Positions 10,344-24,568 of a stretch of DNA of 24,568 bases are shown here, one piece after another (within the stretch, counting starts at the first letter, position 1; each line of letters starts with the position of its first letter). Source of the stretch: a virus; the IMG/VR virus record IMGVR_UViG_3300008219_000094, positions 1 through 24,568 of that record. One strand, 5' to 3'. The position numbers and the translations under genes are program-made. Under the pieces are notes generated by a model. The model searched no databases. It was not told the DNA's origin and saw only the letters and a program-made list of their open reading frames with translations.

Positions 10344-13253
10344 ATGGCTGACGTGCTAAAGAGACACCAAGGAATTTCCGAGCTTTTAGAGAAGATTTAT
10401 CCGGAAGCTCCGAGCGGAATACCAGACCCAGAGAAACTGCAAGCAGAGCAGGATTTTCTACAGGATTACTTAGGAGCTACCGACTATGCCGCACAGGACC
10501 GTGAAGCACGGAGGATGCGGAATCTTCAGATAGGCCTCTCTCTTATGGGAAGAGGTTTTGGTGGTGTAGGAGAAGCGCCACGGCGAGGAGAAGCTCCTCT
10601 TTCCACTTTTGGAAGGTCTGTCGTGTCTCCTCTTGCATCCGACCTTATGGGAATCACAGGGCAGGACTACCAGAACCGGGCAGCGAGGAGAGCAGCACAG
10701 GCACAGGAGGAGAGAGCCCTTAAACTATCCGCTTTGCAAAATGTTCAGCAAAGACAAGCAGCAGCTGCCGCCAGAAAAGAAAGCATAGCCACAACAGCCC
10801 TTGGGCTGATTCCACAAGAATCTACACTACTGGATAATCTTACCTATGACGGTGTACCTACGCCTATAATACAAACCATAGATTCAATTACAGGAGAGCC
10901 TACCTTTAGTTCCCTATCTGGTGAGGAACTGGACGGTACGTTGGTGGGGATCAAAGGTGCAGGACTTCCGAAACCTTCCACCACGGCTTTGACTGGGGAT
11001 TGGGAAAAAATAATCAGAGATGAGGATGGCACCATAACAGGGGCCGAGGTAGTCCCCGTTGTCAGAAAAACAATCTACACGGCGGATGCTCCCGAAGGAG
11101 TAAACTCACTGTGGGATGCTTCGGGGGACGGTACACGGTACTATACCTCTGGGGAAGCTAAAAACCTTCAGCCAGCAGGTACTTGGGCGGATAGTCAAAG
11201 TACGGATGCAGCAGAACTGGAGCATCTGTCCGACTATGTCTTAGTGGACAGTAAAAACAAGGCCTTGACAGCAAAACAAGCTGGCGTAGGGGGTGAGGTC
11301 CCACTTGTGTTCAAGCAGTATGAGCAAGATGGTGTGTTACAACAATCCGTACTCATGGAGGACGGAACATATAAACCATGGACAGAGGTGCTGGCTAAGG
11401 ACGAGCCACTAAAAGACTTGGTTCGAGGTTTCCGATTAAAGACCCTTACCGATTATGACGAGAAGCCCACCGCAGATGATCCAATATGGGACAAAGAAGC
11501 TATTCAAAACTTTACACAGGCGGGAAGCATATTCAGTACAAGTCCCGATACAGGCGACAGGGAAGGCTTTAGAATCAACCGAGGGGCATTTTTTAACCAC
11601 ATAGGTGCCGGGGCTACGGGCTTGTATAAACCCGCAGAGGGAGAGCCGGGATTATTTGAACACAAGGGGAACGTTCCCCTTACACAGGAACAGCAGGAGC
11701 ATCTTGAAACTGTGTTCCGGTCCTTTGTCAGTAAGCTGGACAGGTCCTCTGACAGGGAACCAGTAGAGACTGCTATTACTAGGGCGTTAGAGCAGTTTTC
11801 ACAAATGGGGTACTCGGAGGTGTTTGGTGACGGTACTATTGTCGCTACTGACGCTGCACCCACCGTGGGTGAGGCAAGAGCGGTTGACGCAGTCAGGTTT
11901 AGAGAACTTGAGGAGCTAGGTTCTCAAAACCAGCCCGTAGCTGCCCTAGCAAACCCTGACAGCCCCGAGGGTATTAACGTACCTAATTTAGACCCCCGTG
12001 TCCGGCGTAGGGCCTTCCCTATTCTTACAGGCATCAACTACAATCCCAAATTGTTTGCGGTTGACCCCAATGCATTAGATGGGGGAGATACACAATTAAG
12101 GCTTGACGTAGAGGCTGTAGCAGCCGCTGGTGGGGGAGATATAGCCCAAGGAAATCTAGACAGCGAGAATAGGATAGCCTTTGGAAAAGCTTTTACAAAA
12201 TACAGGGATGCAAGAGAAAAAGAGCAACGCTCCGGAACTGCCACAGCCGTAAAAACTTCCGTGGTGGAACAGTTAAATCTCTTAGATGACTTAGATAGCA
12301 TCATAGCAGCCGCCAGCAGGATAGGGTGGGCTGAAGGACCAATAGCGGGGCGGGTAGCAGCCCTGCGAACTGCTATTGGTATGGGGGACCGCGAATTAAA
12401 TAACCTAGTTGCTCGCATGCGCTTATCCGCCAACGGCATTGCCCGGATGCTTGGTAAGCAACTTAACAGCGGCAGGTTGTCGGACAAGGACGTAGAACAA
12501 CAGCGGCAGCTTGCTCCCAACATCACTACCGCAGACAAACTGAACTATAGCTTACTTATGCAGTTACGGGGAGCTGCCGAAAGAATCCTTGAGGGCCTTA
12601 TGTATGAGTCAGGTCATGTAGCGTTTAACGACAACGCGAACAGAAGGATGGCAGAAAGAGGATATCAGATGCAAAACGTCACTCCATCCCTCAATTACCA
12701 CAGTGACTGGTATAAGGGTCAGACTACGGATGCATTAAAAGCAGACATAGAGGGAATGACTCTCTCCAAAATAACGCCGCACAGAGTAAATGGGGTTTTG
12801 GATATTATTTCGGAACGCAGAGGAGATGGGAATAGATATGTTCTTGTTCCTAAGTATGCGGACGTTAATAACCCAAGAAGATCTGACGGCGTTATAAATC
12901 TTAGGGCAAATGAAGAAGAAAACTTTAATGCAGACCTGCTTTTAGAACAGACCTCTGGAGAGCTGGGCCGTGGTCAACCCACAGAAAATGAATTTGCGGA
13001 AATAATACCCCTTGAGGGTGAGGACGGACTGCTGGCGGACTTTGAACTATACCGGAAGGCTCTCGCGCTTCCCCCAGCGAAATTAGCAGGGAACACTGAA
13101 GAAGCTATAGCCGCACGGGATGCTATAGCATACTGGATGGATGTATGGCCTAGGATTAAAGCCATGTACACAAGAGTAGAAAAAAGACCTTACTACAGAA
13201 GGTATTTCGACAGAATTGACATGAAGCAGCTTTCACCAGGAATAACTAACTGA
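10344..13253 (+). CDS. Large internal virion / DNA-ejection-like protein (969 aa)
   Basis: A 969-residue protein. The N-terminus is helical and charged (VLKRHQGISELLEKIYPEAP) with an Arg/Ala/Gln-rich coiled stretch at ~110-150 (RAARRAAQAQEERALKLSAL). The middle is mixed beta/alpha with no recognised enzyme motif. Residues ~640-770 hold a helical block of a type found in large podovirus virion proteins (LLDDLDSIIAAASRIGWAEG, RMRLSANGIARMLGKQLNSG, then APNITTADK). Its stop codon overlaps the start of the next gene by one base (TGATG), so the two are probably translated together. By size, order and composition it is a candidate counterpart of T7 gp15/gp16-type or P22 gp16/gp20-type ejection proteins; this is analogy, not detected homology. 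GAGG lies 7 bases before the ATG. Confidence 0.6.
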   Translation: MADVLKRHQGISELLEKIYPEAPSGIPDPEKLQAEQDFLQDYLGATDYAAQDREARRMRNLQIGLSLMGRGFGGVGEAPRRGEAPLSTFGRSVVSPLASDLMGITGQDYQNRAARRAAQAQEERALKLSALQNVQQRQAAAAARKESIATTALGLIPQESTLLDNLTYDGVPTPIIQTIDSITGEPTFSSLSGEELDGTLVGIKGAGLPKPSTTALTGDWEKIIRDEDGTITGAEVVPVVRKTIYTADAPEGVNSLWDASGDGTRYYTSGEAKNLQPAGTWADSQSTDAAELEHLSDYVLVDSKNKALTAKQAGVGGEVPLVFKQYEQDGVLQQSVLMEDGTYKPWTEVLAKDEPLKDLVRGFRLKTLTDYDEKPTADDPIWDKEAIQNFTQAGSIFSTSPDTGDREGFRINRGAFFNHIGAGATGLYKPAEGEPGLFEHKGNVPLTQEQQEHLETVFRSFVSKLDRSSDREPVETAITRALEQFSQMGYSEVFGDGTIVATDAAPTVGEARAVDAVRFRELEELGSQNQPVAALANPDSPEGINVPNLDPRVRRRAFPILTGINYNPKLFAVDPNALDGGDTQLRLDVEAVAAAGGGDIAQGNLDSENRIAFGKAFTKYRDAREKEQRSGTATAVKTSVVEQLNLLDDLDSIIAAASRIGWAEGPIAGRVAALRTAIGMGDRELNNLVARMRLSANGIARMLGKQLNSGRLSDKDVEQQRQLAPNITTADKLNYSLLMQLRGAAERILEGLMYESGHVAFNDNANRRMAERGYQMQNVTPSLNYHSDWYKGQTTDALKADIEGMTLSKITPHRVNGVLDIISERRGDGNRYVLVPKYADVNNPRRSDGVINLRANEEENFNADLLLEQTSGELGRGQPTENEFAEIIPLEGEDGLLADFELYRKALALPPAKLAGNTEEAIAARDAIAYWMDVWPRIKAMYTRVEKRPYYRRYFDRIDMKQLSPGITN

Positions 13254-16200
13254 TGTCTGACCTACAAATTGAAAATGCAGACTACTTAGGCTTGTCCAAA
13301 GACGGTAAATGGGCCTATGAGGTCACGGACCAAAACCGTAAGACACATACACTACAGTTTCACCCAAAGTTGTGGGGAGCGAAGAAAGGTAACACAGAAG
13401 GGCACAGGGGTGTGCTAAATGCCCTCTCAAACAAAGGGGCTTTTGACACAGACTTTCAAACAAAAGTATTGCAACACGCCTTTAGGAACATGCCCGGAAT
13501 GTTTGCAGATAGCAGAGGCTTCTTTGGCAGAGTTTTTTGGCCGACACTAAAAGGAGCCCCAGCGCAGCTTGTGGGCCTCCCCGCCGACGTAGCCCAGATG
13601 CCTCTTGCAGCAGCTAGTGCAGCTACAGAGGGGGTCGGGTGGCTTAGTGAAAGGTATGGAGAGTTGAGGGGAGGAGCTACAGTACCTGCTGATACCTCTG
13701 CTGTACAAGATCGTATAAAAGCCGCACAGGAAGGACTCGCTACAATAGGCTCCGAAAACCTGCGACAAGCTTTTGAAAATGCCAGCGGTATAGACATGAC
13801 CGCTGACCCCAGAGGGCCTTATGAACAAATTATGGCTTATGCCATGGAGTTTGCCTTGGGAGGTGCTGAGTCAAAATTCTGGGTAGAAACTGCCGGGGCT
13901 TTGAACACGCTTAGTAGGATGGCCCGTAGAGCTTCCCGTGAGAAAGGGGCTGACGCTGCGTCGCCCGATAATGTCGGGTCCATGATGGACAAAGTCAAAG
14001 CAGCGTACCGTGGTAAAGAAGGACGGCAGCGTTTCTATGCAGAAACAGGGTATGGTTTTGGTGCAGGGTTTACTTTTGGAAGTCTGCTGGAAGGCTTTGG
14101 CCTAGAGGACCATCCTTTGGGTCAGGTCGCAGCTATGGCAGGGGCTATAGCGGGCCCTGCGGCTTTAGTAACAGGTGGCAAGTACATTGCCGATAAACCA
14201 GTCATAAATTGGCTGAGTCTCGGTATAATTCCAGCGGCTGTTGGATTGAAAAGATCTTTAGGAAGGACCTTTGTTGGGGAAGAAGCCTTAAAGGAGAGAC
14301 TTCTCAACTCACTTAAAGGTTACGGGGATCACAAGGTCTTACCAGACGGCTCTCCTAATACTAGAAAAAACAGAGGCCACGCGATAGCTAGACTAGCGGA
14401 ACTACAAAAACAGGCTCTTGCACGGGGGGGGGCTTTTGTAGAAGGCACCGAAAACCTTTTCTTCAGCTCACCTGCAAGGTATCGGGGTATCGCTAGGGCG
14501 CTTACTGAGAAAAAGTTTATTTTAGAAAAATCTCTTAGAGACTTGGAAAATCAGCGCAGGATAGAAGGTCCGGATGCTATGCCCGAAGAAGTCTACGCAA
14601 GAGAAAGAGAAAATCTTGAGTTTGACATAGCCCAGACAGAGAGTGACATGGAACTGGCTGATTTCTTTAGTCAAGCTGTAGAAAACATAAGAACATCTAC
14701 ACTTAAAAAAACTGGGCGTAGTCCGGAGGCACTCGCAGAACTAACGAAAAGGGATTTAGAAGAAGTAGTCCATATTAGTGATAACTTGTTTTCTGCTGTG
14801 TACAAAGCCTTTGATGACAGCATTGAAGGCACCACTCTTGGCGGAGAAAAGTTAGCTCTCCGAACAGCGGAGGGCGGCGTAGATGTACGGGGACTTCTTG
14901 ACGAGGACTACAACAAGTTCAAAGATGCCCCTAGAGACTATGTTCCCAAGTACGAGGAAACCAGAGAAAGACTTCTTCGTGAGGGAATAAGAGAAGGTAG
15001 CAAGTGGCAAGAGCTTAAATTTGTAGATGAAGAAACAATTCAGTCTATAGAAAAGAGACTTACGACACATTTCGACCAAATTCTGGAAAGGGACTTTCTG
15101 GAAGCTCGGCAGGACCTTTTGAGGAGTGCTGAAAAACGGCAAAGTACAATTATAGAAAATCTTGATTCTTGGGTAAGAGAAAAAGGTTATGACAGCATAG
15201 AAGAAGCTGCTAAAGATCCCGCACTGAAACTGGTTATAGATGAACGAATACGATCTGCCTATGCCGATGCGGACGATCATTGGAAAGCTTTGCAGACAGC
15301 CTTTTGGGAAAGGATTCCGGGGCTTAAAGAAAAGGTTCGAGGAGACAGTATTAAGTTCCCAGAGAACACTGTTTTTCAGGCTCCGGGTGTAGACAACACC
15401 AAAGTAGATGTCTCTGGTCTTGGTCCCGCAGAGGCAATCGACAAGATCACAAAGGAACTGTCTTCAGCAGCAGGAGTAGATCCCGCATTGTATCTCCCGA
15501 GACAGTTCTTTCAAATTGGCGGTACAAATTCAGCCCGTAACCTAGCAAAAAGTATTCAAGACGAACAAATACTTGCCGCCCAAGTAGATGCTGGTCTTGG
15601 TGCTGGTCGAGTAGCCGCAGAACAAATACCTACAAAAATAGCTAGACTTGAGGAAAATGTTACCACCGCACAAGACAAATTAAATGTAGCCGAAACAGAT
15701 CTCGAAGCGCGACAGGTACTAGAAAGAGAGCAAGTAGACACCGCTGTGACAGACCTCAAGTCCTTTGTACGAGAGATGGTAGAAAATGCAGCAACCGGAG
15801 GGGCTAACGAAGTTGCACAAGCAGGGCTTGTTCGTTACCTCTCAAACTCGGTCCCTGGGACAGCACGTTGGAGTTCTCTAAGAGGTCCTAAAGCCGTGGC
15901 CGACAGGAAAGCATGGCTAGATAACATCCCACAAAGCATTGGAGACGAAGTGGGTATTCCAGACGCACGTTCTCGCCAGCCCTTGGAGCTGACCGAAGAG
16001 AATGCAACTATGCTAGAAAACATAGTAGGGGACTACCGCGCAGACAAGGTTATAAGCGGCGAACTATCTTTAGAGGATGCCGTGGGAGGGGTAATGCGTA
16101 CTCTGGCACCTCCAAAATATGTAGGGTCCGGAGGGACCTGGAAAACCCCCACTAACTACTTGGAAGCTCTCATAGAAAAAAGAACCACGCTGGATAACCT

Positions 16201-18514
16201 TGTAGAAAAACCTAGTCCCACGATTCTAGCTCTTACTAAAAAGCGGGACAACTTTCAAAAAGATCTTCTGAAGAAAGAGTACAAACTAAAGGATGTTTCA
16301 GAGTCTATTTTGTCACAAGAAGGAGGTCCAGTCTTACTAGGAAGGCTTGATGGAGATACCAGCGCAGGAGATGTGCAGGATATTATATCCGAGCTTAAAG
16401 ATTCTAGGTCCATTAACAAAGACACTTGGACACCGGCAAAGAAGGCTAACACCAGAGCCCTAGAAGAGATGTTGCTGTCACTAATTAATGAGGGCAACTT
16501 CCCTGAAATAGATACAGTAGCACTAATGCAAGCCAGACAGGCCACCCGAGCGTACTACCATGTCCAAGATTCTATGGGGGATATTCTTAGTTTAGATGGC
16601 AGTACTCCGTCGATTTCTCCCGAGAGGGTGGCACAGACCGTTCTTCCCGGTAAAACGATCAGTGATCCTGCTGCACAAAGGGAAGCGATACGAAGGTTAC
16701 AAACAGTCCTACAAAGGGTTGACACAAACATTGCAGAGTTTGAGAGGGTGCCTCTGTTAGATAGAAGCGGTAAACCTTTATTAGATTCTAGGGGCCGTCC
16801 TAGGACAACGCAACAGGCAACAATACAGCCAGACCTTCCTTTTAACAATGACACCAAGGATCTTTACAGCCTTGAAGGTTGGCCCTATGAAGTTCAGGAA
16901 ATAGGGCAAGAAAGACGGGCTTTTGGCCTAAGACTTAAAGACGATATTAAGAATGTCGAAGGCACCGCAGCAACAAGAGATGCCGCTGATCTAATTGAGT
17001 ACGTACTTATAGACCAGCTAAGAAGAAGCCTACCGGAAGAGGTTCGCCTAGCGGGAGCTACAAAAATTCACCGCGACATGGTTCCTGTTGATCTTTTAAA
17101 TGAGTTTATGGAGACACATGCGGATGGAATTAACTTTTTAAAAAGGCATGGTAATAAGGAACAAAGAACCTTAGTAGAGGCGCTGGAAGGGGCTCCTGTT
17201 ATAGACAAAGCTTCCGGGGAAATGACAGGTAGAACCCTTGGTCTAAGTACTTTATCCGAGTTTGTAGAAGAACTGATGAAAGCCAACGACCTGAACGCTT
17301 TAGAAGCCATAAATAGGTTACGGGGAAGAGGTGCTTTTGCAGACGAGCTTTCTAACGAAGCTATTCTACATGCACGTAAAATATTAAAAAATGACGATTT
17401 TGAAGTACAGACACTTAAAGAATCTTACGGAGCTGAGTACGGAACTGTTATAGATTCGCTTCTAGACAACATCACCCGTCCGGGCTCTAAGACTCCAGAT
17501 ACGGACATAGACAACTTTCTTAGTGTTCTAAAAGACAGCAAGCTGCAAAAAGATGCTTTTAAGGGAGCCTTGATGCAGAGTGTGTGGAGAAAAATACAAA
17601 CCGCAGTCGAGATACCCGGCGAAAAGCTTCCTCCAGGAGCCATGAGGCGATTAGGGAAACCTGTTAAAAGCCTTGGAGCGGCAGACGAGCTGGCAAAACT
17701 TCTTGATAACGAAAACTTTGTGACGCTTATTCACAAAACCTATGCAGACAACCCGGAGCATGGAGCAAAACTACTTGAAGCACTCGACAAAGTGGTTAAG
17801 GGAATAGGGGATGTGTCATCTGGCCGTATTAGAAACCTACAGGACATGGCCGATTTTGCCCAGACAGAATTGTTCACCAATTTTGGTAGAGCTTTTGCAT
17901 TGGCTGGCGCTAAAGCGACAGGGTTCATTAACGAGTTGTACGCAGCAGGAGCTGGCGGCAGAATCTTTCGACGTTTAGGAGAAGCACTAACCGGAAACAT
18001 CCTTGACGATATGCTGATACTTGCCGCAAAGAATGAAAACGTCCTGCTAAATTTTCTGGAAGACATCAGTGGTTCCCGTGTTAAACAAAAAATGAGAAGT
18101 GATATTCTGGGAACCTTATACACGTTGGTAATGAATGACCTGAACCCGCTGGATATGTTCCGTAGATCTGTCGGACGGGGCGGTGCTGGCCTAGAACTTC
18201 TGACAGAACCTGTTGAAGAAAGAGAAGACCGAGAAAGTATAAGACAGCTAAGATTTGGAAGTCCTACTGCTTCTCTCCAGATGGAGCCTTCTCCAGTACA
18301 GGTTGCACGAGCCGAACCTAACACGGCTTCCGTTCTCAACAAAAGCTTGTTTGATTACGCAAGCCCTGCTCTTAGTAATAACATGGCCTCCGCACAAACA
18401 GACCCAACCACACTGGCTGAAGGCCAGAAATTGTTTGGAGCAACAGACCCTGTCTTCGCCAACAAGGGAGGCATAGTGTCTCTCCGTAAGAAACCGAGGC
18501 AGATGGTCCTTTGA
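13253..18514 (+). CDS. Giant internal virion / DNA-ejection-like protein (1753 aa)
   Basis: At 1753 residues this is the largest gene here. Visible parts: an N-terminal domain with Trp/Phe-rich segments (GFFGRVFWPTLKGAPAQLVG); a Gly/Ala-rich hydrophobic region at ~266-335 (AAMAGAIAGPAALVTGG, INWLSLGIIPAAVGL) that could enter a membrane; coiled-coil-like stretches at ~420-485, ~790-840 and ~970-1020; and a C-terminus with the string NKGGIVSLRKKPRQMVL. No clear lytic transglycosylase or peptidase motif was found by eye. The size and hydrophobic patch fit a protein ejected with the DNA to form a channel through the envelope, as large podovirus internal proteins do; this is inferred. Translation is likely coupled to the previous gene (TGATG). 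It contains a nine-G run at 14424-14432. Its stop overlaps the lysin's TTG start. Confidence 0.65.
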   Translation: MSDLQIENADYLGLSKDGKWAYEVTDQNRKTHTLQFHPKLWGAKKGNTEGHRGVLNALSNKGAFDTDFQTKVLQHAFRNMPGMFADSRGFFGRVFWPTLKGAPAQLVGLPADVAQMPLAAASAATEGVGWLSERYGELRGGATVPADTSAVQDRIKAAQEGLATIGSENLRQAFENASGIDMTADPRGPYEQIMAYAMEFALGGAESKFWVETAGALNTLSRMARRASREKGADAASPDNVGSMMDKVKAAYRGKEGRQRFYAETGYGFGAGFTFGSLLEGFGLEDHPLGQVAAMAGAIAGPAALVTGGKYIADKPVINWLSLGIIPAAVGLKRSLGRTFVGEEALKERLLNSLKGYGDHKVLPDGSPNTRKNRGHAIARLAELQKQALARGGAFVEGTENLFFSSPARYRGIARALTEKKFILEKSLRDLENQRRIEGPDAMPEEVYARERENLEFDIAQTESDMELADFFSQAVENIRTSTLKKTGRSPEALAELTKRDLEEVVHISDNLFSAVYKAFDDSIEGTTLGGEKLALRTAEGGVDVRGLLDEDYNKFKDAPRDYVPKYEETRERLLREGIREGSKWQELKFVDEETIQSIEKRLTTHFDQILERDFLEARQDLLRSAEKRQSTIIENLDSWVREKGYDSIEEAAKDPALKLVIDERIRSAYADADDHWKALQTAFWERIPGLKEKVRGDSIKFPENTVFQAPGVDNTKVDVSGLGPAEAIDKITKELSSAAGVDPALYLPRQFFQIGGTNSARNLAKSIQDEQILAAQVDAGLGAGRVAAEQIPTKIARLEENVTTAQDKLNVAETDLEARQVLEREQVDTAVTDLKSFVREMVENAATGGANEVAQAGLVRYLSNSVPGTARWSSLRGPKAVADRKAWLDNIPQSIGDEVGIPDARSRQPLELTEENATMLENIVGDYRADKVISGELSLEDAVGGVMRTLAPPKYVGSGGTWKTPTNYLEALIEKRTTLDNLVEKPSPTILALTKKRDNFQKDLLKKEYKLKDVSESILSQEGGPVLLGRLDGDTSAGDVQDIISELKDSRSINKDTWTPAKKANTRALEEMLLSLINEGNFPEIDTVALMQARQATRAYYHVQDSMGDILSLDGSTPSISPERVAQTVLPGKTISDPAAQREAIRRLQTVLQRVDTNIAEFERVPLLDRSGKPLLDSRGRPRTTQQATIQPDLPFNNDTKDLYSLEGWPYEVQEIGQERRAFGLRLKDDIKNVEGTAATRDAADLIEYVLIDQLRRSLPEEVRLAGATKIHRDMVPVDLLNEFMETHADGINFLKRHGNKEQRTLVEALEGAPVIDKASGEMTGRTLGLSTLSEFVEELMKANDLNALEAINRLRGRGAFADELSNEAILHARKILKNDDFEVQTLKESYGAEYGTVIDSLLDNITRPGSKTPDTDIDNFLSVLKDSKLQKDAFKGALMQSVWRKIQTAVEIPGEKLPPGAMRRLGKPVKSLGAADELAKLLDNENFVTLIHKTYADNPEHGAKLLEALDKVVKGIGDVSSGRIRNLQDMADFAQTELFTNFGRAFALAGAKATGFINELYAAGAGGRIFRRLGEALTGNILDDMLILAAKNENVLLNFLEDISGSRVKQKMRSDILGTLYTLVMNDLNPLDMFRRSVGRGGAGLELLTEPVEEREDRESIRQLRFGSPTASLQMEPSPVQVARAEPNTASVLNKSLFDYASPALSNNMASAQTDPTTLAEGQKLFGATDPVFANKGGIVSLRKKPRQMVL
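14424..14432 (+). other. Nine-G homopolymer within the giant virion gene
   Basis: Nine consecutive G bases encode part of ALARGGAF near residue 391 of the 1753-residue protein. By hand translation, one added G would lead to a stop about 22 codons later, and one lost G to a stop within a few codons. The frame is intact as given. Confidence 0.9.
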
Positions 18515-18963
18515 GACTTTCCTACAACTTCTCTCTATGGGAAATGACCAAGTCACAGACCGCAGACCGTCTGGGAATTAATAACGAGCCCGACGAAGCT
18601 CAAACAGAAAACCTCAGACTTCTCTGCAAGCACGGTCTGGAACCAGTGCGAAAGCACTACTCTGTTCCAATCAGGCCCTCCAGTGGCTTTAGATCCGCCG
18701 CTCTCAACGAGGCCCTTGGTTCAGGGCCCAATTCCCAGCACACCAAGGGACAGGCAGCAGACTTTGAGGTGCCATGGGTAGACAACATGGCACTAGCCCT
18801 ATGGATCATGGACAACGTAGTATACGACCAGCTCATTCTTGAGTACTACAAGGAGGACGTGCCCAACTCCGGTTGGATACACCTGAGCTACATAGACCCA
18901 CCCTCCAAGAACAGGCGGCAGTCAAAAATATTTGATGGTAAGGTCTGGAAGAAGCTAGACTAG
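18511..18963 (+). CDS. M15-family peptidase, probable endolysin or virion lysin
   Basis: A 150-residue zinc peptidase of the M15_3 type (D-Ala-D-Ala carboxypeptidase / L-Ala-D-Glu endopeptidase relatives), which cuts peptide stems or cross-links of peptidoglycan. Motifs seen: GFRSAALNEALG (59-70), SQHTKGQAADFE (75-86, zinc ligands H77 and D84), YDQLILEY (105-112, probable catalytic Glu) and GWIHLSY (121-127, third ligand H124). The start is taken as TTG 18511, overlapping the giant gene's stop (TTGA), because the family N-terminus (LSYNFSLWEMTKSQTA) begins there; ATG 18544 would remove it. There is no signal peptide, so it needs a holin or acts from the virion; no holin is seen in this window. 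The 3' end overlaps the opposite-strand helicase gene by 9 bases. Confidence 0.85.
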   Translation: MRLSYNFSLWEMTKSQTADRLGINNEPDEAQTENLRLLCKHGLEPVRKHYSVPIRPSSGFRSAALNEALGSGPNSQHTKGQAADFEVPWVDNMALALWIMDNVVYDQLILEYYKEDVPNSGWIHLSYIDPPSKNRRQSKIFDGKVWKKLD

Positions 18964-18964
18964 C
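18954..18964. repeat. Palindrome holding both convergent stop codons
   Basis: GCTAG-A-CTAGC is a perfect inverted repeat. It contains the TAG of the lysin (18961-18963, + strand) and the TAG of the helicase (18957-18955, - strand). The stem is too short, and lacks a T-run, to be an intrinsic terminator. The symmetry follows largely from the two TAG codons facing each other. Confidence 0.8.
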
Positions 18965-20400
18965 CACTCTCTGGCAGACTCTCCAAGAATCTGATTTGCT
19001 ATGTTGATCTTGTCACGCAAGGACTTGACTATCTTTTCGTCAATCGTCTTTGGCGACATAAGGTCGATGTAAGTGACCTTGTTGTTCTGACTAATCCTAT
19101 GGGCACGGTCCTCGCTCTGTAAGCGCAGCTCCAAGTCATAACTGTTCGAGTAATATATTACAGTGTTTGCTGCCGTCAGCGTCAGACCATACCCTCCCGT
19201 TTTTGGATGCCCCACAAGGAACCTCAGCTCAGACTGTCTATCCTGGAAAGTTTCCACAATATGTTGACGTTCCGAGTCTGGGGTCTCCCCGTGGAGCGCT
19301 GAGACCGCTTGTACGCTGTAGCGGTCTCGCAGGGCCTCAACAATCGAGCGTATGTCAGCTGTCCACGTTGCCCATACGATTGCCTTACCCTGTACCTCTT
19401 CACATAAGTCCAAGAGAGACTTGATGCGATTGGAAGAAAGATCGTGAACTTTGCCCTCGTCATCTGTCAGGTGACCGCAGCATATCTGTTGTAGCCGCAT
19501 GATCTGTGTCAGGACACTGTGCGTTGTAGCAAGTTCTCCATTGCTCAGTTGCGCGAGAGCCAACTGCTTCATCTGCTTGTACGCTTTTTCCTGTTCCTTG
19601 GTTAAGGCTACTTCTCTCTTCTCGTAGACCTTATCAGGAAGATCCAGACAGTCTTCTTTCCGCACTCGAAAGGAGCTTTTGGAAAGCTTCTCCGTCAGCT
19701 CGTCCAGCCTCTGGTAACCTATAACTTGATTAAAGATCCTTGCACCCATGTGCTTCTTGTCTAGCAAAGCGTACCGTGACTGAAAGGCATAGAAGTTTTT
19801 GAACCCGAGAATGTCAGGATCAAGGAAACCCATCTGACTGAACAGGTCGAGGGGGCTCTTGGTGACCGGGGACCCTGTTAAAATCCTCCTGTACCGCGCA
19901 CCACGGCCCACTGCACATAGCGCAATTGTCCGCTGGGCTCCACGGTTTTTGATAGTCGTACTTTCATCAACCACCATGATCGCCTTAAACATTTTGATAA
20001 AGGCCTTTGCAACGTCAGTACCTTTCTCAGTGGAGAATGCTTCCACATTCATAAGCAAAAACTTGAGCTTCCCTGTTTTAGTGTACAGCGCCCGTAGCGA
20101 CTTCTTGACCTTGTCTGTCAGATTGGGATTCCACAAAAGAACTTCCCGCTCTATGCGCGGAGGGAGGTGCGTTTCAATCTCGGCCACCCAGTTTGCAATC
20201 ACCCCCTTTGGAGCAACCACTACAGCTATGTCTATCTTTTTCTCTTCAAACAAGAGCCCGATAGTATCAATAGTTACCTTGGTCTTGCCGGTGCCCATGT
20301 CCATAAGCAATGCATAGTTGGTTTGCTCCGAGCTTTTGTCGAAGGCTTCTCTCTGATGAGCGTAGGGCTCGGTGAAGAATTTGAATTTTTTATCTTGCAT
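18955..20400 (-). CDS. SNF2-type superfamily 2 DNA helicase/translocase
   Basis: A 481-residue SF2 ATPase starting at ATG 20400-20398 (MQDKKFKFFTEPYAHQREAF). Motifs in order: Q-like EPYAHQ; Walker A DMGTGKTK (34-41); Ia APKGVIANW; Walker B VVDEST (143-148); III ILTGSPV (173-179); then lobe-2 motifs LHGETP, GYGLTLTAANTVIYY (from ~403) and VI QSEDRAHRISQ (428-438), the SNF2 signature. Such proteins move along double-stranded DNA; in phages they may help replication, recombination or removal of bound proteins. The frame extends 61 codons upstream, but those residues lack homology-like features and run antisense into the next gene, so they are excluded. It is the only - strand gene here, transcribed towards the lysin with a 9-base tail overlap. 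AGGACT sits just before the ATG, an unusually short ribosome-site spacing. Confidence 0.9.
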   Translation of the reverse strand: MQDKKFKFFTEPYAHQREAFDKSSEQTNYALLMDMGTGKTKVTIDTIGLLFEEKKIDIAVVVAPKGVIANWVAEIETHLPPRIEREVLLWNPNLTDKVKKSLRALYTKTGKLKFLLMNVEAFSTEKGTDVAKAFIKMFKAIMVVDESTTIKNRGAQRTIALCAVGRGARYRRILTGSPVTKSPLDLFSQMGFLDPDILGFKNFYAFQSRYALLDKKHMGARIFNQVIGYQRLDELTEKLSKSSFRVRKEDCLDLPDKVYEKREVALTKEQEKAYKQMKQLALAQLSNGELATTHSVLTQIMRLQQICCGHLTDDEGKVHDLSSNRIKSLLDLCEEVQGKAIVWATWTADIRSIVEALRDRYSVQAVSALHGETPDSERQHIVETFQDRQSELRFLVGHPKTGGYGLTLTAANTVIYYSNSYDLELRLQSEDRAHRISQNNKVTYIDLMSPKTIDEKIVKSLRDKINIANQILGESAREWLV

Positions 20401-20413
20401 AGTCCTAGGATTA

Positions 20414-20442
20414 CCTATACAAGTTACGTGACCGTCCGTCAA
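20414..20442 (-). promoter_or_regulatory. Putative sigma70 promoter for the SNF2 helicase
   Basis: On the - strand, TTGACG (20442-20437) and TATAGG (20419-20414) are separated by exactly 17 bases. They match the consensus at 5 of 6 and 4 of 6 positions. Transcription would begin near 20407, only about 6-7 bases before the ATG, so the mRNA leader would be very short. This is a prediction from sequence only. Confidence 0.5.
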
Positions 20443-20448
20443 GACGGT
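20431..20448. promoter_or_regulatory. Inverted repeat flanking the -35 box, candidate operator
   Basis: ACCGTC (20431-20436) and GACGGT (20443-20448) are perfect inverted 6-base half-sites with a 6-base spacer. The spacer is exactly the TTGACG -35 hexamer of the helicase promoter on the - strand. The geometry fits a dimeric repressor site. It could also fold as a short hairpin in an RNA reading through. It sits in the only non-coding gap longer than 50 bases. Confidence 0.4.
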
Positions 20449-20477
20449 AGAAACAAGAAACATTAGGAAAGGAAAGT

Positions 20478-21056
20478 ATGAAAGACATATTAGATCAGAT
20501 GGCATCTGATGCCAACACATCTTCCTCAGACAAAATCGACAAGCTTGAGGATGGGAAACTGGATAAGGTCTCCCGTCTAGCAAATGAAGCTGCCCGATTG
20601 CAGGAAGATGTGGATAATGCCGAAGACTTGTATAAGAACTTCAAGAAATCCTTGAAGAAGGTTACAGACGAACTTCTCCCCGATGCGATGGAGGAGTTGG
20701 GTATTGAAAACCTTACCCTTTCGGACGGAAGCCGTATCGAAATCAAGCCCGTCTATTCGGCTACCATTTTGGTAGACAAGAAAGAAGAAGCCTTCAAGTT
20801 TATCCGCCAATGTGGTGACGATGACATTATAAAAAATAATGTAACTGTCACGTTTGGTCGTGGAGAAATGAACGAGGCAGAGGCTTTTACCGAATGGGTT
20901 GCGGATAAAGGTCTGATTCCAAACCAGACTCAAAAAATTGAGCCCTCCACGTTGAGGGCTTGGTTCAAGAGTCGCGTGGAAGACGGCTTACCTGTGACCA
21001 CAGACGCGATAACCACTTACATGTCTAACCATGCGAAAATAACGAGGAAACGATAA
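20478..21056 (+). CDS. Conserved phage protein, coiled-coil N-terminus, unknown function
   Basis: A 192-residue protein starting the replication module, with AGGAAAGGA before the ATG. Residues ~20-75 are a charged helical coiled-coil (DKVSRLANEAARLQEDVDNAEDLYKNF). Residues ~75-150 form a compact alpha/beta domain with a pattern I recognise in marine phage proteins encoded beside replication genes (AMEELGIENLTLSDGSRIEI, FIRQCGDDDIIKNNVTVTFG). A C-terminal basic helical part (STLRAWFKSRVEDGLPVTTD) ends in RKR. No catalytic motif is visible. The next gene follows after only 2 bases, so the two are probably co-translated and work together, perhaps on single-stranded DNA; that role is inferred from context. 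Confidence 0.65.
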   Translation: MKDILDQMASDANTSSSDKIDKLEDGKLDKVSRLANEAARLQEDVDNAEDLYKNFKKSLKKVTDELLPDAMEELGIENLTLSDGSRIEIKPVYSATILVDKKEEAFKFIRQCGDDDIIKNNVTVTFGRGEMNEAEAFTEWVADKGLIPNQTQKIEPSTLRAWFKSRVEDGLPVTTDAITTYMSNHAKITRKR

Positions 21057-21058
21057 AG

Positions 21059-21844
21059 ATGGCAAGAACAGCAGTTGCTAAAAAGAAGAAAGCTGAAGTA
21101 ATAGCGTTTAATCCCGATATGTTTTCGGCGGACGCTGGTGCTGGCTTAACGAACCTGGGAACCGAGGATTTGGCAATGCCTTTCCTCAGAATTCTCCAGA
21201 AGACTTCACCCGAGCTGGATGAAATAGACGCTCGGGCTGGAGACATCTATAACACGGTCACCAAGGAAGTCATCAACGGCTCTGATGGTTGCCGAGTAAT
21301 TAATTGTGCTTACCGGCTAGAGCATATTGAGTGGGAGCCGTTGGGCCAAGGATCAAAGGCTCCTTTCAACATTTATCCAGCAGGGACTGCCCTACCAGAC
21401 ACCTTCCGCAATGATGACGAGAAGGACTTTAACGACTACGTTGTGGATGGCGATGGAAGGTATCTAGAGCGTACTGCTCAACACTATGTTCTTACGCTAG
21501 ATGGCGAGGGGATGACGCAGCAAGCTCTGGTTTCCATGAAAACGACTCAGTTTAAGAAGTCAAAGCAGTGGAACTCCGCATTGAAAGCGGCAAAAATGAA
21601 AGACAGCAAAGGCCACCTTTTTGTGCCGCCTCGGTATGCTCAAATCTTTCGTCTCAAGACGCACAAGGAGGAGAACAAGAAGGGCAGCTGGTTTGGCTGG
21701 GAGATTAGCAAGGAAGGCTACATCGACAATGCCAACCTGTACGCTGAAGCCAAGATGTTTGCAGAAAGCATAAGCGCAGGACAAGTCAACGTCCAACATC
21801 AGCGCGAAGAGTCTAAGGTTAAACAGGAAGAAGTACCCTTTTAA
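21059..21844 (+). CDS. Candidate phage single-stranded DNA-binding protein
   Basis: A 261-residue protein with a Lys-rich N-terminus (AVAKKKKAEV), a central beta-rich body (MPFLRILQKTSPELDEID, GCRVINCAYRLEHIEWEPLG, QHYVLTLDGEGMTQQALVSM, MKTTQFKKSKQWNSALKAAK) and a C-terminus ending KQEEVPF. An acidic tail finishing in Pro-Phe is the hallmark of bacterial and phage SSBs (E. coli SSB ends DDDIPF), where it recruits partner proteins. I do not recognise an OB-fold motif with certainty, so the call rests on the tail, size and position between the module's first gene and the primase. An intrinsic terminator immediately downstream would let this gene be expressed more highly than the primase, as expected for an SSB. 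It could instead be a recombination mediator or another DNA-binding protein. Confidence 0.5.
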   Translation: MARTAVAKKKKAEVIAFNPDMFSADAGAGLTNLGTEDLAMPFLRILQKTSPELDEIDARAGDIYNTVTKEVINGSDGCRVINCAYRLEHIEWEPLGQGSKAPFNIYPAGTALPDTFRNDDEKDFNDYVVDGDGRYLERTAQHYVLTLDGEGMTQQALVSMKTTQFKKSKQWNSALKAAKMKDSKGHLFVPPRYAQIFRLKTHKEENKKGSWFGWEISKEGYIDNANLYAEAKMFAESISAGQVNVQHQREESKVKQEEVPF

Positions 21845-21851
21845 GGGTGTT

Positions 21852-21883
21852 GCGAGGGGGGTAAAACCTCCTCGCTATTTTTT
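21852..21883 (+). terminator. Intrinsic terminator abutting the primase start codon
   Basis: GCGAGGGGG (21852-21860) pairs with CCTCCTCGC (21867-21875), giving nine pairs including one G-U round the six-base loop GTAAAA, followed by TA and a run of six T (21878-21883). It lies 8 bases after the stop of the SSB-like gene. The primase ATG (21884) begins directly after the last T, so read-through is needed to make full primase mRNA. Confidence 0.85.
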
Positions 21884-23428
21884 ATGGAAAGGGAACTCAT
21901 ACAAAGATTCGCGCTCCTATTCCGGGGGCTCGACATGGCCTACGGCACCTTTGTCGTAACGGGGAAAAAAGCCAGCGGCAAGTCCGAGGGTAAGGCTACC
22001 TTTGTAAAAGAAAAACGGAACACAAATACTTTTGCCTCGCACCTTAACGGGGAACGCAGTGTCGGAATTGTCCCCATAAACGAGGACAGCCAGTGCTGGT
22101 GGGGCTGCATTGACATTGACATCTATCCGCTCGACCATTCCAAACTTGTACAAAAGATACACAAACTTAAACTCCCCCTTGTGCTGTGCCGTTCCAAGAG
22201 TGGAGGAGGTCACGTCTTCCTCTTTCTTAAAGAACCTATCCCGGCAGAGGCTCTGCAAAACAAGCTGAAGGAGATAGCATCAGAACTTGGCTGTGCTAAA
22301 GGCACCGAGATTTTTCCAAAGCAGATTGTTCTTGTTCTCGAACGAGGGGACAAGGGCAACTTTCTAAACCTACCTTACTTCAACCATGAGAACGGACTCC
22401 GGTACGCCTTCAAGCCAAACGGCGAGATGGCTACCCTTCAGGAATTTGTGGAGATGGCGGAGGCTTCCGCCGTTATGCCCGATGCTCTGGACAAGCTTCT
22501 GGTTAAGCAGACTCCGGAGGTTGACGAGCGGCTCAAGGATGGACCTCCCTGTTTACAGGTGCTTTTACGGCAGGGCTTCCCCGAGGGCACACGGAACAAT
22601 GGCCTGTTTAACCTGGGAGTGTACCTGAGAAAGGCGTACCCTGATGATTGGGAAACTAAAATCCTTGAGTATAACCAAGCAATTATGGACCCTCCTCTTG
22701 ATCTTAAAGAGGTTAACATTGTCGCTGCTCAGTTGCATAAGAAAGACTATCAGTACAAGTGTGAAGACCAGCCAATTTGCAATTTTTGCAATCGGGACCG
22801 TTGCCGTTCTCGCCGGTATGGTGTCGGGGGTGACATCAATACCGCAAGCATTGCGAACCTTCGTAAATACGATTCTGAGCCACCTCTCTGGTTCCTAGAC
22901 GTAAACGGCTCACCCGTGGAACTTGACACAGAAGCACTTCAACGTCAGCCAAAGTTTCAAATCCTCTGCATGGAACAGATCAACCACATGCCACGCACCA
23001 TTGCCCGACAGGCTTGGGAGTCGCAGATGAATGCACTTTTAAAAACCATGGTGGAGACAGAAGGTGCTATCATTACAACTTCCGAAGACACAAGTCTGCG
23101 AGGTCAGTTTTACGAGATGCTAGAAGAGTTCACCACGCACATGCAGTCCGCTCTTGATAAAGAAGAGATCCTGCTTCGCCGCCCATGGACCAATGAGACA
23201 ACCCATCGTACCTACTTCCGGTTGAAGGACTTTGAGGGTTATCTCAAACGCAACAAGTTCACTGAGTACCGTTCCAACAAGATTGCACAAAGGCTGCGCG
23301 ACATTGACGGACAGTCAGAGCAGCTACGGATAAACGGCAGACCTATACGATGCTGGAGCATTCCAGCCTATGAGGAGATCGAACAGGAGTTCAGTTCTCG
23401 CTTTGAAGGACCCGAGGAGCCCTTCTAA
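21884..23428 (+). CDS. Archaeo-eukaryotic-type primase (TOTE-primase-like) with zinc cluster
   Basis: A 514-residue protein. Residues ~10-170 match the AEP primase domain of the TOTE conflict-system type: LFRGLDMAYGTF, then WGCIDIDIY (metal-binding D77 and D79), SKSGGGHVFLF (H110, the sGxH motif), EIFPKQ (143-147) and GNFLNLPYF (158-166). Residues ~215-290 resemble a helical primase C-terminal domain (GFPEGTRNNGLFNLGVYLRK), followed by a Cys cluster C293, C299, C302, C307 that could bind zinc. Residues ~330-514 are a further helical domain ending GPEEPF. It probably makes RNA or DNA primers for phage replication. ATG 21884 is the only possible in-frame start after the previous stop; it has no ordinary ribosome site, as the only G-rich stretch is inside the terminator stem. 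ATG 21935 would cut the domain. The stop overlaps the next ATG (TAATG). Confidence 0.8.
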   Translation: MERELIQRFALLFRGLDMAYGTFVVTGKKASGKSEGKATFVKEKRNTNTFASHLNGERSVGIVPINEDSQCWWGCIDIDIYPLDHSKLVQKIHKLKLPLVLCRSKSGGGHVFLFLKEPIPAEALQNKLKEIASELGCAKGTEIFPKQIVLVLERGDKGNFLNLPYFNHENGLRYAFKPNGEMATLQEFVEMAEASAVMPDALDKLLVKQTPEVDERLKDGPPCLQVLLRQGFPEGTRNNGLFNLGVYLRKAYPDDWETKILEYNQAIMDPPLDLKEVNIVAAQLHKKDYQYKCEDQPICNFCNRDRCRSRRYGVGGDINTASIANLRKYDSEPPLWFLDVNGSPVELDTEALQRQPKFQILCMEQINHMPRTIARQAWESQMNALLKTMVETEGAIITTSEDTSLRGQFYEMLEEFTTHMQSALDKEEILLRRPWTNETTHRTYFRLKDFEGYLKRNKFTEYRSNKIAQRLRDIDGQSEQLRINGRPIRCWSIPAYEEIEQEFSSRFEGPEEPF

Positions 23429-23772
23429 TGCGGAAAAAGAAAGTCTTCTGCCGACACTGCTACAAAGCCGCTGTTACCGTGGTCTCTGAAGTACCACTTT
23501 GTCCCGAGCACTATTTCCTTGGCGTGGCAGAGGAAGTCAAGACATATAACAACGAGCAACAGGACCATTGGTCCGCTCTTCTTAGGGAGTTGCGGCTGGA
23601 GAAAAAGCTATCACAAAAGGAACTGGCAGACCGCACGTTTTTGTCGCAGCGCACTATATCCGAATACGAAAATACAAGTAAGCCACGCCAACTCTCCATC
23701 TATAAAGTCGAAAAAATGCTTCATGCCATGGGGTACGATTTAGATGCCATTGTAAGGAAACGAGATGATTAG
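23428..23772 (+). CDS. Zinc-knuckle plus XRE helix-turn-helix regulator
   Basis: A 114-residue protein. The N-terminus has C8-x2-C11 (CRHC) and C25-x2-H28 (CPEH), spaced like a small zinc ribbon or knuckle. Residues ~49-107 form an XRE/Cro-type helix-turn-helix (LLRELRLEKKLSQKELADRT, then RTISEYENTSKPRQLSIYKV). It is probably a DNA-binding regulator, perhaps acting on the phage's own promoters. It starts at the ATG overlapping the primase stop (TAATG), with GAGGAG just upstream, and its 3' end overlaps the UvrD-like gene by 8 bases, so all three are likely translated from one mRNA. A HTH protein inside a replication operon, rather than beside a divergent promoter, is unusual. Alternative: a replication accessory factor using the HTH for origin binding. 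Confidence 0.8.
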   Translation: MRKKKVFCRHCYKAAVTVVSEVPLCPEHYFLGVAEEVKTYNNEQQDHWSALLRELRLEKKLSQKELADRTFLSQRTISEYENTSKPRQLSIYKVEKMLHAMGYDLDAIVRKRDD

Positions 23773-24568
23773 AATATTTGGACCACCCGGAACTGGAAAG
23801 ACAACAACCCTGCTTAACCATGTTGAGAAGCTTCTGGCAGATGGCGTGAAGGCAAATGAAATAGGCTACTTTGCATTCACCAAGAAAGCGTCCAACGAAG
23901 CTCGGGACAGAGCCGTAGCAAGATTTAATCTGGACCCGGAAAAAGACTTCCTGTTTTTCCGAACCCTACACTCCATGGCGTTTCAGTCCCTAGGCCTCAG
24001 CTCCGCCGATGTCTTGAAAGAGAGCCACTTAAAAGAGTTTAGCGAGAAGGTCGGCGTGAACCTTGTGGATGGAGTAGAGATATCCGAAGACGAAGGCTTT
24101 GTTACTTTCCGCAGCAGCCATCCGATAATGAGAGCGATTGACTTAGCACGGACCACGCTCCACGGCCCTCGGTGGGCTTACAACAATACAGACCTTCTGG
24201 AGCCCTTCTATCATTTTGAACATATCTTCAATGAGTACGAAAGCTTCAAGCAAGCCAACCACCTTACTGACTTCACAGACATGTTGTCTAAACTTGCAGC
24301 GTCCCCGGAGCTTGTCCCAAAACTGAAAGTAGTCTTTCTGGATGAGGCGCAAGATCTCACGCCGTTACAGTGGGAGATCGCTCATATCTTAAATTCAAAA
24401 TGTGAGCGGATGTACATAGCGGGAGATGATGACCAAGGTATATTTGGGTGGAATGGGGCGGAGATAAAAAAGTTCATAACACTTGAAGGAAGCAGTGAGG
24501 TTCTTAGTCAGAGCTATCGCGTTCCTTGGAAAGTTTTTGAACTAGCCAACCGGATTGTCAACCGCATA
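23765..24568 (+). CDS. UvrD/Rep-like SF1 DNA helicase, 3'-truncated by window end
   Basis: The frame is open from ATG 23765 to the last base (268 codons), so the gene continues past the window. AAGGA before the ATG serves as ribosome site, and the start overlaps the regulator gene by 8 bases. Motifs: Walker A GPPGTGKTTT at residues 6-15, almost at the N-terminus; Ia IGYFAFTKKASNEAR; a helicase-specific FRTLHSMAF; Walker B VVFLDEAQD (189-197); III AGDDDQGIFGW (219-229); IV SQSYRVP. This is the UvrD/Rep family, a 3'-5' translocase on single-stranded DNA, here probably the replicative or recombination helicase working with the primase. Subdomain 1B is short compared with E. coli UvrD. The C-terminal motifs V and VI lie beyond the window. 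Confidence 0.88.
   Translation, partial: MIRIFGPPGTGKTTTLLNHVEKLLADGVKANEIGYFAFTKKASNEARDRAVARFNLDPEKDFLFFRTLHSMAFQSLGLSSADVLKESHLKEFSEKVGVNLVDGVEISEDEGFVTFRSSHPIMRAIDLARTTLHGPRWAYNNTDLLEPFYHFEHIFNEYESFKQANHLTDFTDMLSKLAASPELVPKLKVVFLDEAQDLTPLQWEIAHILNSKCERMYIAGDDDQGIFGWNGAEIKKFITLEGSSEVLSQSYRVPWKVFELANRIVNRI

Follow-up and report, generated by a model that had tools for sequence, protein, structure and literature searches.

Which enzyme primes DNA synthesis in a phage whose replication locus encodes an archaeo-eukaryotic primase (AEP) of the Pfam family AEP-TOTE, and does that family name imply an anti-phage defence system? Both questions are raised by IMG/VR virus record IMGVR_UViG_3300008219_000094. 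The window analyzed here is the entire record, a fragment of 24,568 bases whose 3' gene, encoding a UvrD-like helicase, is open at the contig end. In the window, the primase gene is accompanied by genes for an SNF2-type helicase, a gp33-like coiled-coil protein, a gp34-like protein (hereafter gp33 and gp34), a helix-turn-helix (HTH) protein, and the UvrD-like helicase (Table 1). We estimate a probability of roughly 0.75 that these genes come from a tailed phage and belong to its early replication module, comprising the AEP primase, a family-A DNA polymerase (PolA), helicase superfamily 1 and 2 (SF1/SF2) motors, an OB-fold single-stranded DNA-binding protein (SSB), and C-terminal tips shared by the primase and the SSB.

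The window protein is an AEP-family primase

By sequence, the 514-aa window protein is an AEP-family primase. It matched Pfam AEP-TOTE (PF22548) with 56.6 bits (cut-off 27) and the phage family phrog_21866 "primase" with 331 bits. An earlier note, made from the letters of this DNA alone, had proposed an AEP-type primase with the motifs DID, sGxH, and FPKQ. The profile search led to the same family, and the motifs lie at D77-x-D79, G108-x-H110, and F144-P-K-Q147. Residues D77, D79, S106, G108, H110, and P145 were invariant across 36 diverse relatives; K146 and Q147 of motif III were kept in 34 of the 36, and cysteines C293, C302, and C307 in 35, 32, and 33, respectively. A PDB sequence search returned a single match, the 7nqf/7nqd group of CRISPR-associated primase-polymerases (CAPPs), which was marginal (E 0.018). 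AlphaFold run on the primase as a single sequence gave a mean predicted local distance difference test score (pLDDT) of 36, too low for the fold to be read. From the family assignment, we infer priming activity.

The AEP is very likely the only primase of the phage

Parts of the standard bacterial-type replication machinery were sought in 18 records that carry the AEP primase (nine public genomes plus nine large contigs from IMG/VR), and controls were positive in the expected reference genomes. Toprim_2 and the DnaG zinc ribbon were each found in 0 of these 18 records, and DnaB_C was found in 0 of 26 distinct records (9 public genomes and 17 IMG/VR contigs). PolA was present in 17 of the 18 records. 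A second canonical primase-helicase was one of the two observations that the earlier note had named as counting against it; these searches revealed none in the relatives. Because neither DnaG parts nor a DnaB-type helicase turned up in the relatives searched, and the nearest complete ones have a family-A polymerase, the AEP is very likely the only primase of the phage.

Another role for the AEP would be that of a primase-polymerase (prim-pol) for repair, restart, or translesion synthesis, with genome priming left to host DnaG or to transcripts. Many repair roles are described for AEP enzymes (PMC4538821), and no phage-encoded hexameric helicase was detected in the relatives. However, diverse phages retain the AEP next to an SSB, helicases, and PolA, and it was the only primase type found in the 18 records. 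A repair role in place of genome priming is improbable.

gp34 is probably an OB-fold SSB

The AlphaFold2 model of gp34, built with 33 relatives, had a pLDDT of 88.9. The value fell to about 57 in the last 20 residues, as expected for a predicted flexible tail. When the model was compared with known structures by VIA-align, the top match was the PhiC31 recombination directionality factor fused to integrase (PDB 9teh chain I; Z 8.3 over 153 residues). The BRCA2 OB region (Z 6.4), the RB69/T4 gp32 core (Z 6.2 over 160 residues), RPA, and many bacterial SSBs were also matched. Individual Z scores were middling, and the matches listed were mostly OB-fold proteins that bind single-stranded DNA. The model thus suggests that gp34 is probably the SSB of the phage. 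As a separate observation, the PhiC31 directionality factor may be a relative of the gp34 OB-fold family.

The primase family and its synteny are already known or at least annotated, and its members are labelled "primase". gp33 and gp34 are mostly annotated as "hypothetical" or as domains of unknown function (DUF). Neither the OB-fold assignment of gp34 nor the tip shared by the primase and gp34 was found in a limited open-access literature search in which gp34 was not targeted exhaustively; these two points are what looks new here.

The primase and gp34 share a C-terminal tip

The primase and gp34 of the window both end in an acidic stretch closed by Pro-Phe (PF). Such a tip is of the type found at the C-terminus of E. 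coli SSB (SSB-Ct), DDDIPF (PMC5872125). Across the phage relatives compared, PF ends were present in 84 of 118 primases (71%) and 73 of 96 gp34 proteins (76%), vs. 4 of 932 other open reading frames (ORFs) on the same contigs (0.4%). They were absent from UvrD (0/97), SNF2 (0/71), and gp33 (0/89). Coincidence or composition bias might be suspected, in that the strictly shared residues are just two and the sequences right upstream differ. In view of the enrichment, chance and composition were rejected as the cause of the tips, and we consider this explanation extremely improbable.

The two tips also vary jointly. PY/PY, NY/NY, EF/EF, and II/II pairs of primase and gp34 were observed, and in MW202510 both tips carry one added residue (..PFV and ..PFA). 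Co-variation was evaluated after clustering at 65% primase identity, which left 56 representatives. The last two residues of primase and gp34 were identical in 16 of the 56, vs. 6.0 expected by shuffling that ignores relatedness (p 5e-5). After removal of PF/PF pairs, the corresponding values were 7 of 47 and 2.4 (p 0.004).

We propose that the tips of the primase and gp34 may dock on one common partner. They might instead dock on host SSB-interacting proteins (clamp loader chi, PriA, RecQ, DnaG, and others), thereby mimicking host SSB and recruiting host machinery to phage DNA. The commonest tip (D/E..PF) is indeed of the bacterial SSB-Ct type, and DDDIPF binds DnaG among others (PMC5872125). 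However, the joint departures from PF are more readily explained by a receptor of the phage that co-evolves with the tips than by a host pocket, which reads a nearly fixed SSB tip. Because several lineages show this joint loss of the PF form, we favour a socket encoded by the phage; docking on host proteins is a serious but rather unlikely option.

The link with TOTE is largely one of nomenclature

The earlier note had seen in the primase fold either an evolutionary source of TOTE anti-phage systems or a capture from them. TOTE denotes TPR, OB, TBP, and Effector (PMC12458937, which cites Aravind 2022). Among the six module proteins, no Pfam match to TPR, TBP, or a nuclease effector was found, and the OB fold predicted in the module lies in the SSB-like gp34. 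The window primase has no helicase domain.

AEP-TOTE proteins were surveyed in 888 sampled genomes from three phyla. Most matches above 200 bits were full-length cellular proteins scoring about 230-350 bits; phage members and members from mobile genetic elements (MGE) score about 40-60 bits. Four cellular examples were scanned, and all were fusions of AEP with an SF2 helicase, one of which also carried DUF559. Other PF22548 members carry reverse transcriptase (RT), PriCT_2, AAA_25, or DUF5906 domains, indicating that the Pfam family "AEP-TOTE" reaches beyond its name; replicative MGE primases and CRISPR prim-pols are included in it as well.

Two kinds of fusion protein were noted in passing. 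One cellular protein (L207:6665-9658, minus strand) has an RT domain fused to AEP-TOTE and no other Pfam match in its 998 aa. At L127:7872-10055 and L123:7977-10151, a phage-type AEP is fused to AAA_25 (RepA-like) or DUF5906; these are probably replication proteins of satellites or plasmids.

In a maximum-likelihood tree of 84 AEP domains, which is unrooted, has a bootstrap that is not fully settled, and includes long RT and PriCT rows, all 56 phage/MGE sequences fell on one side of a branch with 100/99 support. The opposite side held 25 cellular TOTE sequences, CAPP 7nqf, and two RT/PriCT fusions. Because of this split, recent capture in either direction is unsupported among the sampled sequences; the tree, being unrooted, gives no direction (phage to TOTE or the reverse). 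The phylogeny with TOTE primases that the earlier note had called for thus shows no recent exchange, and the special link with TOTE defence was not supported. Judged from sequence comparison, the primase shares with TOTE little more than the name of the family.

Alternatively, the phage might carry the module as a TOTE-like cassette for defence or counter-defence. Its Pfam domain name points that way, and relatives of SNF2 and UvrD occur in defence systems (PADLOC matches). However, the module proteins gave no Pfam match to TPR, TBP, or a nuclease effector, the cellular TOTE-type AEPs are helicase fusions lying across the 100/99 branch, and the module genes form a conserved replication core rather than an accessory set. 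The defence interpretation was rejected on architecture and tree, and is very improbable. The label "AEP-TOTE" does not imply a defence system.

The module is widespread and not tied to short tails

A tblastn search with the window primase gave matches in 24 public phage records, and in 23 of these the match spanned 80% or more of the primase length. The closest public match was phage DSL-LC04 (52.8% identity). A viral-contig scan of IMG/VR revealed at least 588 primase relatives; a viral-contig scan with the primase of phage DMU1 as query revealed three. The order SNF2 (minus strand), then gp33-gp34-primase-UvrD, was present in 54 examined loci, and the remaining loci were mostly truncated or rearranged. 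Complete phage DSL-LC04 has the same gene order, followed by a DNA polymerase I gene directly after UvrD.

The same genes occur in HTVC023P-type pelagiphages, described as Podoviridae (PMC9599517), in siphophage R5C (PMC5454422), and in Acinetobacter and Salmonella phages; the module is therefore not tied to short tails. The earlier note had contrasted this primase with the enzymes of well-studied short-tailed phages. Its placement of the primase in a phage replication module stood. Besides widespread marine phages (the HTVC023P type), Acinetobacter, Klebsiella, Salmonella, and roseobacter phages carry the module.

Gene layout and transcription

The features of the module are listed in Table 1. 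ORFs were recovered at the positions from which the earlier note had read a phage replication module with coiled-coil, candidate SSB, HTH, and UvrD-like genes, and this composition was borne out by Pfam matches and by the OB fold predicted in gp34. The stop/start overlaps it had described from the primase onward were likewise observed: 1 nt between primase and HTH genes, and 8 nt between HTH and UvrD genes. The divergent SNF2-type gene, which the earlier note had not included, is a module member; in most relatives whose sequence extends far enough, it adjoins the other module genes. Its true start is probably near 20400 (Met-Gln-Asp-Lys).

Table 1. Features of the replication module and their positions in the window
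Feature	Position	Strand	Evidence or remark
SNF2/HepA-type SF2 helicase	18955..20583	-	Divergent from operon; SNF2-rel_dom E 1.1e-28, Helicase_C E 2.3e-13, phrog_62 helicase E 2e-121
gp33-like coiled-coil protein	20478..21056	+	PF23984 DUF7307 "Pam3 gp33-like" E 8.7e-25
gp34-like protein, predicted OB-fold SSB	21059..21844	+	PF23977 E 3.2e-55
C-terminal SSB-Ct-like tip of gp34, ..QEEVPF	21824..21841	+	
Intrinsic-terminator-like hairpin and T-run, gp34/primase gap	21852..21883 (hairpin 21852-21875)	+	
Archaeo-eukaryotic primase, 514 aa	21884..23428	+	PF22548 E 3.8e-15, weak PriCT_1; phrog_21866 primase E 3.7e-98
Primase motif I, D77-I-D79, metal binding	22112..22120	+	
Primase motif II, KSGGGH (H110)	22196..22213	+	
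Primase motif III, FPKQ	22313..22324	+	
Primase cysteine cluster C293..C302..C307, after AEP domain	22760..22804	+	Putative metal site, PriCT-like region
C-terminal SSB-Ct-like tip of primase, ..PEEPF	23411..23425	+	
Small HTH protein, Cys-rich N-terminus	23428..23772	+	HTH_3 E 1e-10
UvrD/Rep-like SF1 helicase, N-terminal part	23765..24568	+	Cut by contig end; UvrD-helicase E 5e-30, phrog_1967 DNA helicase E 1.8e-50

The hairpin in the gp34/primase gap, likewise not described in the earlier note, was the top-ranked terminator-like site of the region. It has a 9-bp stem and a folding energy of -18.8 kcal/mol, vs. -8.9 for shuffled sequences (z -4.1). Of 52 representative relatives, 13 had a similar site between gp34 and the primase; none was found in their gp33-gp34 gap, though this gap was mostly too short for testing. 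Because the hairpin separates gp34 from the primase, the five genes are probably not one uninterrupted transcription unit. The hairpin is a candidate attenuator that would lower primase relative to SSB.

The HTH gene was found in just 18 of the loci scanned. It was rejected as a core part of the module and is lineage-specific.

Upstream of the module, an ORF at 18511-18963 encodes a Peptidase M15 (PF08291, E 9.5e-15), likely an endolysin. This ORF adjoins the SNF2 gene and overlaps the 3' end of a 1753-aa ORF (13253-18514). The latter ORF and a 969-aa ORF (10344-13253) are very large and without any Pfam match. They are positional counterparts of the "DNA transfer"/internal virion proteins of DSL-LC04, and the 1753-aa one is much longer than in DSL-LC04. 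In that phage, a PD-(D/E)XK nuclease gene (L002:16037-16747, minus strand) adjoins SNF2; the window has no minus-strand ORF of such size there.

Proposed replication scheme

In the scheme that we propose, the stand-alone AEP would make primers and the phage's own family-A polymerase would extend them. The PolA gene presumably lies beyond the contig end, directly after UvrD as in the nearest complete relative. The UvrD-type SF1 and SNF2-type SF2 motors would unwind and remodel DNA without a hexamer of the DnaB or T7 gp4 type, and gp34 would coat the single-stranded DNA. The acidic, aromatic-ended tips of gp34 and the primase may dock in turn on one surface, the first candidate partner being the phage polymerase. 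The terminator hairpin between the two genes would probably keep SSB in excess.

Several observations weigh against this scheme. A Foldseek search with the gp34 model gave no match at E<=0.001, so that the resemblance of gp34 to known proteins is at the fold level only. A tree-based test of the tips was suggestive only: among 9 independent pairs, too few for significance, 3.1 changed in the same direction vs. 0.3 in opposite directions (median p 0.25). Primases of the HTVC023P clade end in ..KFRT and have no tip, while their gp34 keeps PF, and several primase/gp34 pairs are mismatched (PF/VF, PF/PW); the shared tip is therefore not universal. The polymerase gene would lie outside the window, and priming here is deduced from the primase sequence.

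A broader interpretation is possible, and we offer it tentatively: such phages may represent a widespread, uncharacterized replisome class without its own DnaG-type primase or hexameric helicase, in which the AEP primase, family-A polymerase, SF1/SF2 motors, and OB-fold SSB are linked by co-evolving C-terminal "plugs" of primase and SSB that compete for one phage-encoded socket. Assignment of gp34 as the SSB, together with the shared tip, provides a testable scheme for DNA copying in these phages.

Comparison with known systems

The closest known systems are the phages whose primases belong to phrog_21866: DSL-LC04, HTVC023P-type pelagiphages, Nanhaivirus R5C/Pan1, and the Acinetobacter phage DMU1 group. 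Their primases belong to the same family as the window primase, with matches covering 66-98% of the query (E <= 6e-30), and their neighbourhood is the same as in the window or reshuffled. Relative to them, the window represents a divergent branch, and an HTH gene lies between its primase and UvrD genes.

The distribution of gp34 extends further. Public records with a gp34-like protein numbered 478, and most of them were from Pseudomonas phages of the Pbunavirus (PB1-like) type. In JG024, gp52-gp54 (L432:10628-13887) are adjacent SNF2, gp33-like, and gp34-like genes, as in the window, and gp34 ends in ..EAEEF, acidic-aromatic like that of the window. The polymerase beside the Pbunavirus module differs (1035 aa; the 3'-5' exonuclease has a gene of its own), and Pbunavirus records gave no match in the tblastn search of public phages for the AEP primase. 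The JG024 ending thus indicates that the acidic-aromatic tip persists without this AEP.

TOTE enzymes have an AEP domain homologous to that of the window primase, and one profile matches both across the motif region. The cellular ones are joined to an SF2 helicase and sometimes to DUF559, whereas the window primase stands alone. In CAPP enzymes (MpCAPP, PDB 7nqf; PMC8211822), the AEP is followed by a Cys-containing PriCT-like region, as in the window primase. However, MpCAPP has an N-terminal TPR domain and lies on the cellular side of the tree, and CAPPs adjoin Cas1-Cas2 (PMC8211822), whereas the neighbours of the window primase are the SNF2, gp33, gp34, HTH, and UvrD genes. The authors of that study themselves suggested that CAPPs may derive from viral replicative prim-pols (PMC8211822).

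The T7 replisome (gp4, gp5, gp2.5) combines a family-A polymerase, a phage SSB, and a primase, as is proposed for phages of the window type. The T7 primase is of the DnaG type and is fused to a hexameric helicase; here, in contrast, the primase is an AEP, and no hexameric helicase was found in the relatives. The tail of T7 gp2.5 docks on gp5. The acidic C-terminal tails of gp4 likewise bind basic patches of gp5 (PMC12593628). If the plug-and-socket proposal is correct, these phages would have reached a convergent solution to the T7 hand-off among primase, SSB, and polymerase, and hand-off by tail docking would have been invented independently on an unrelated primase.

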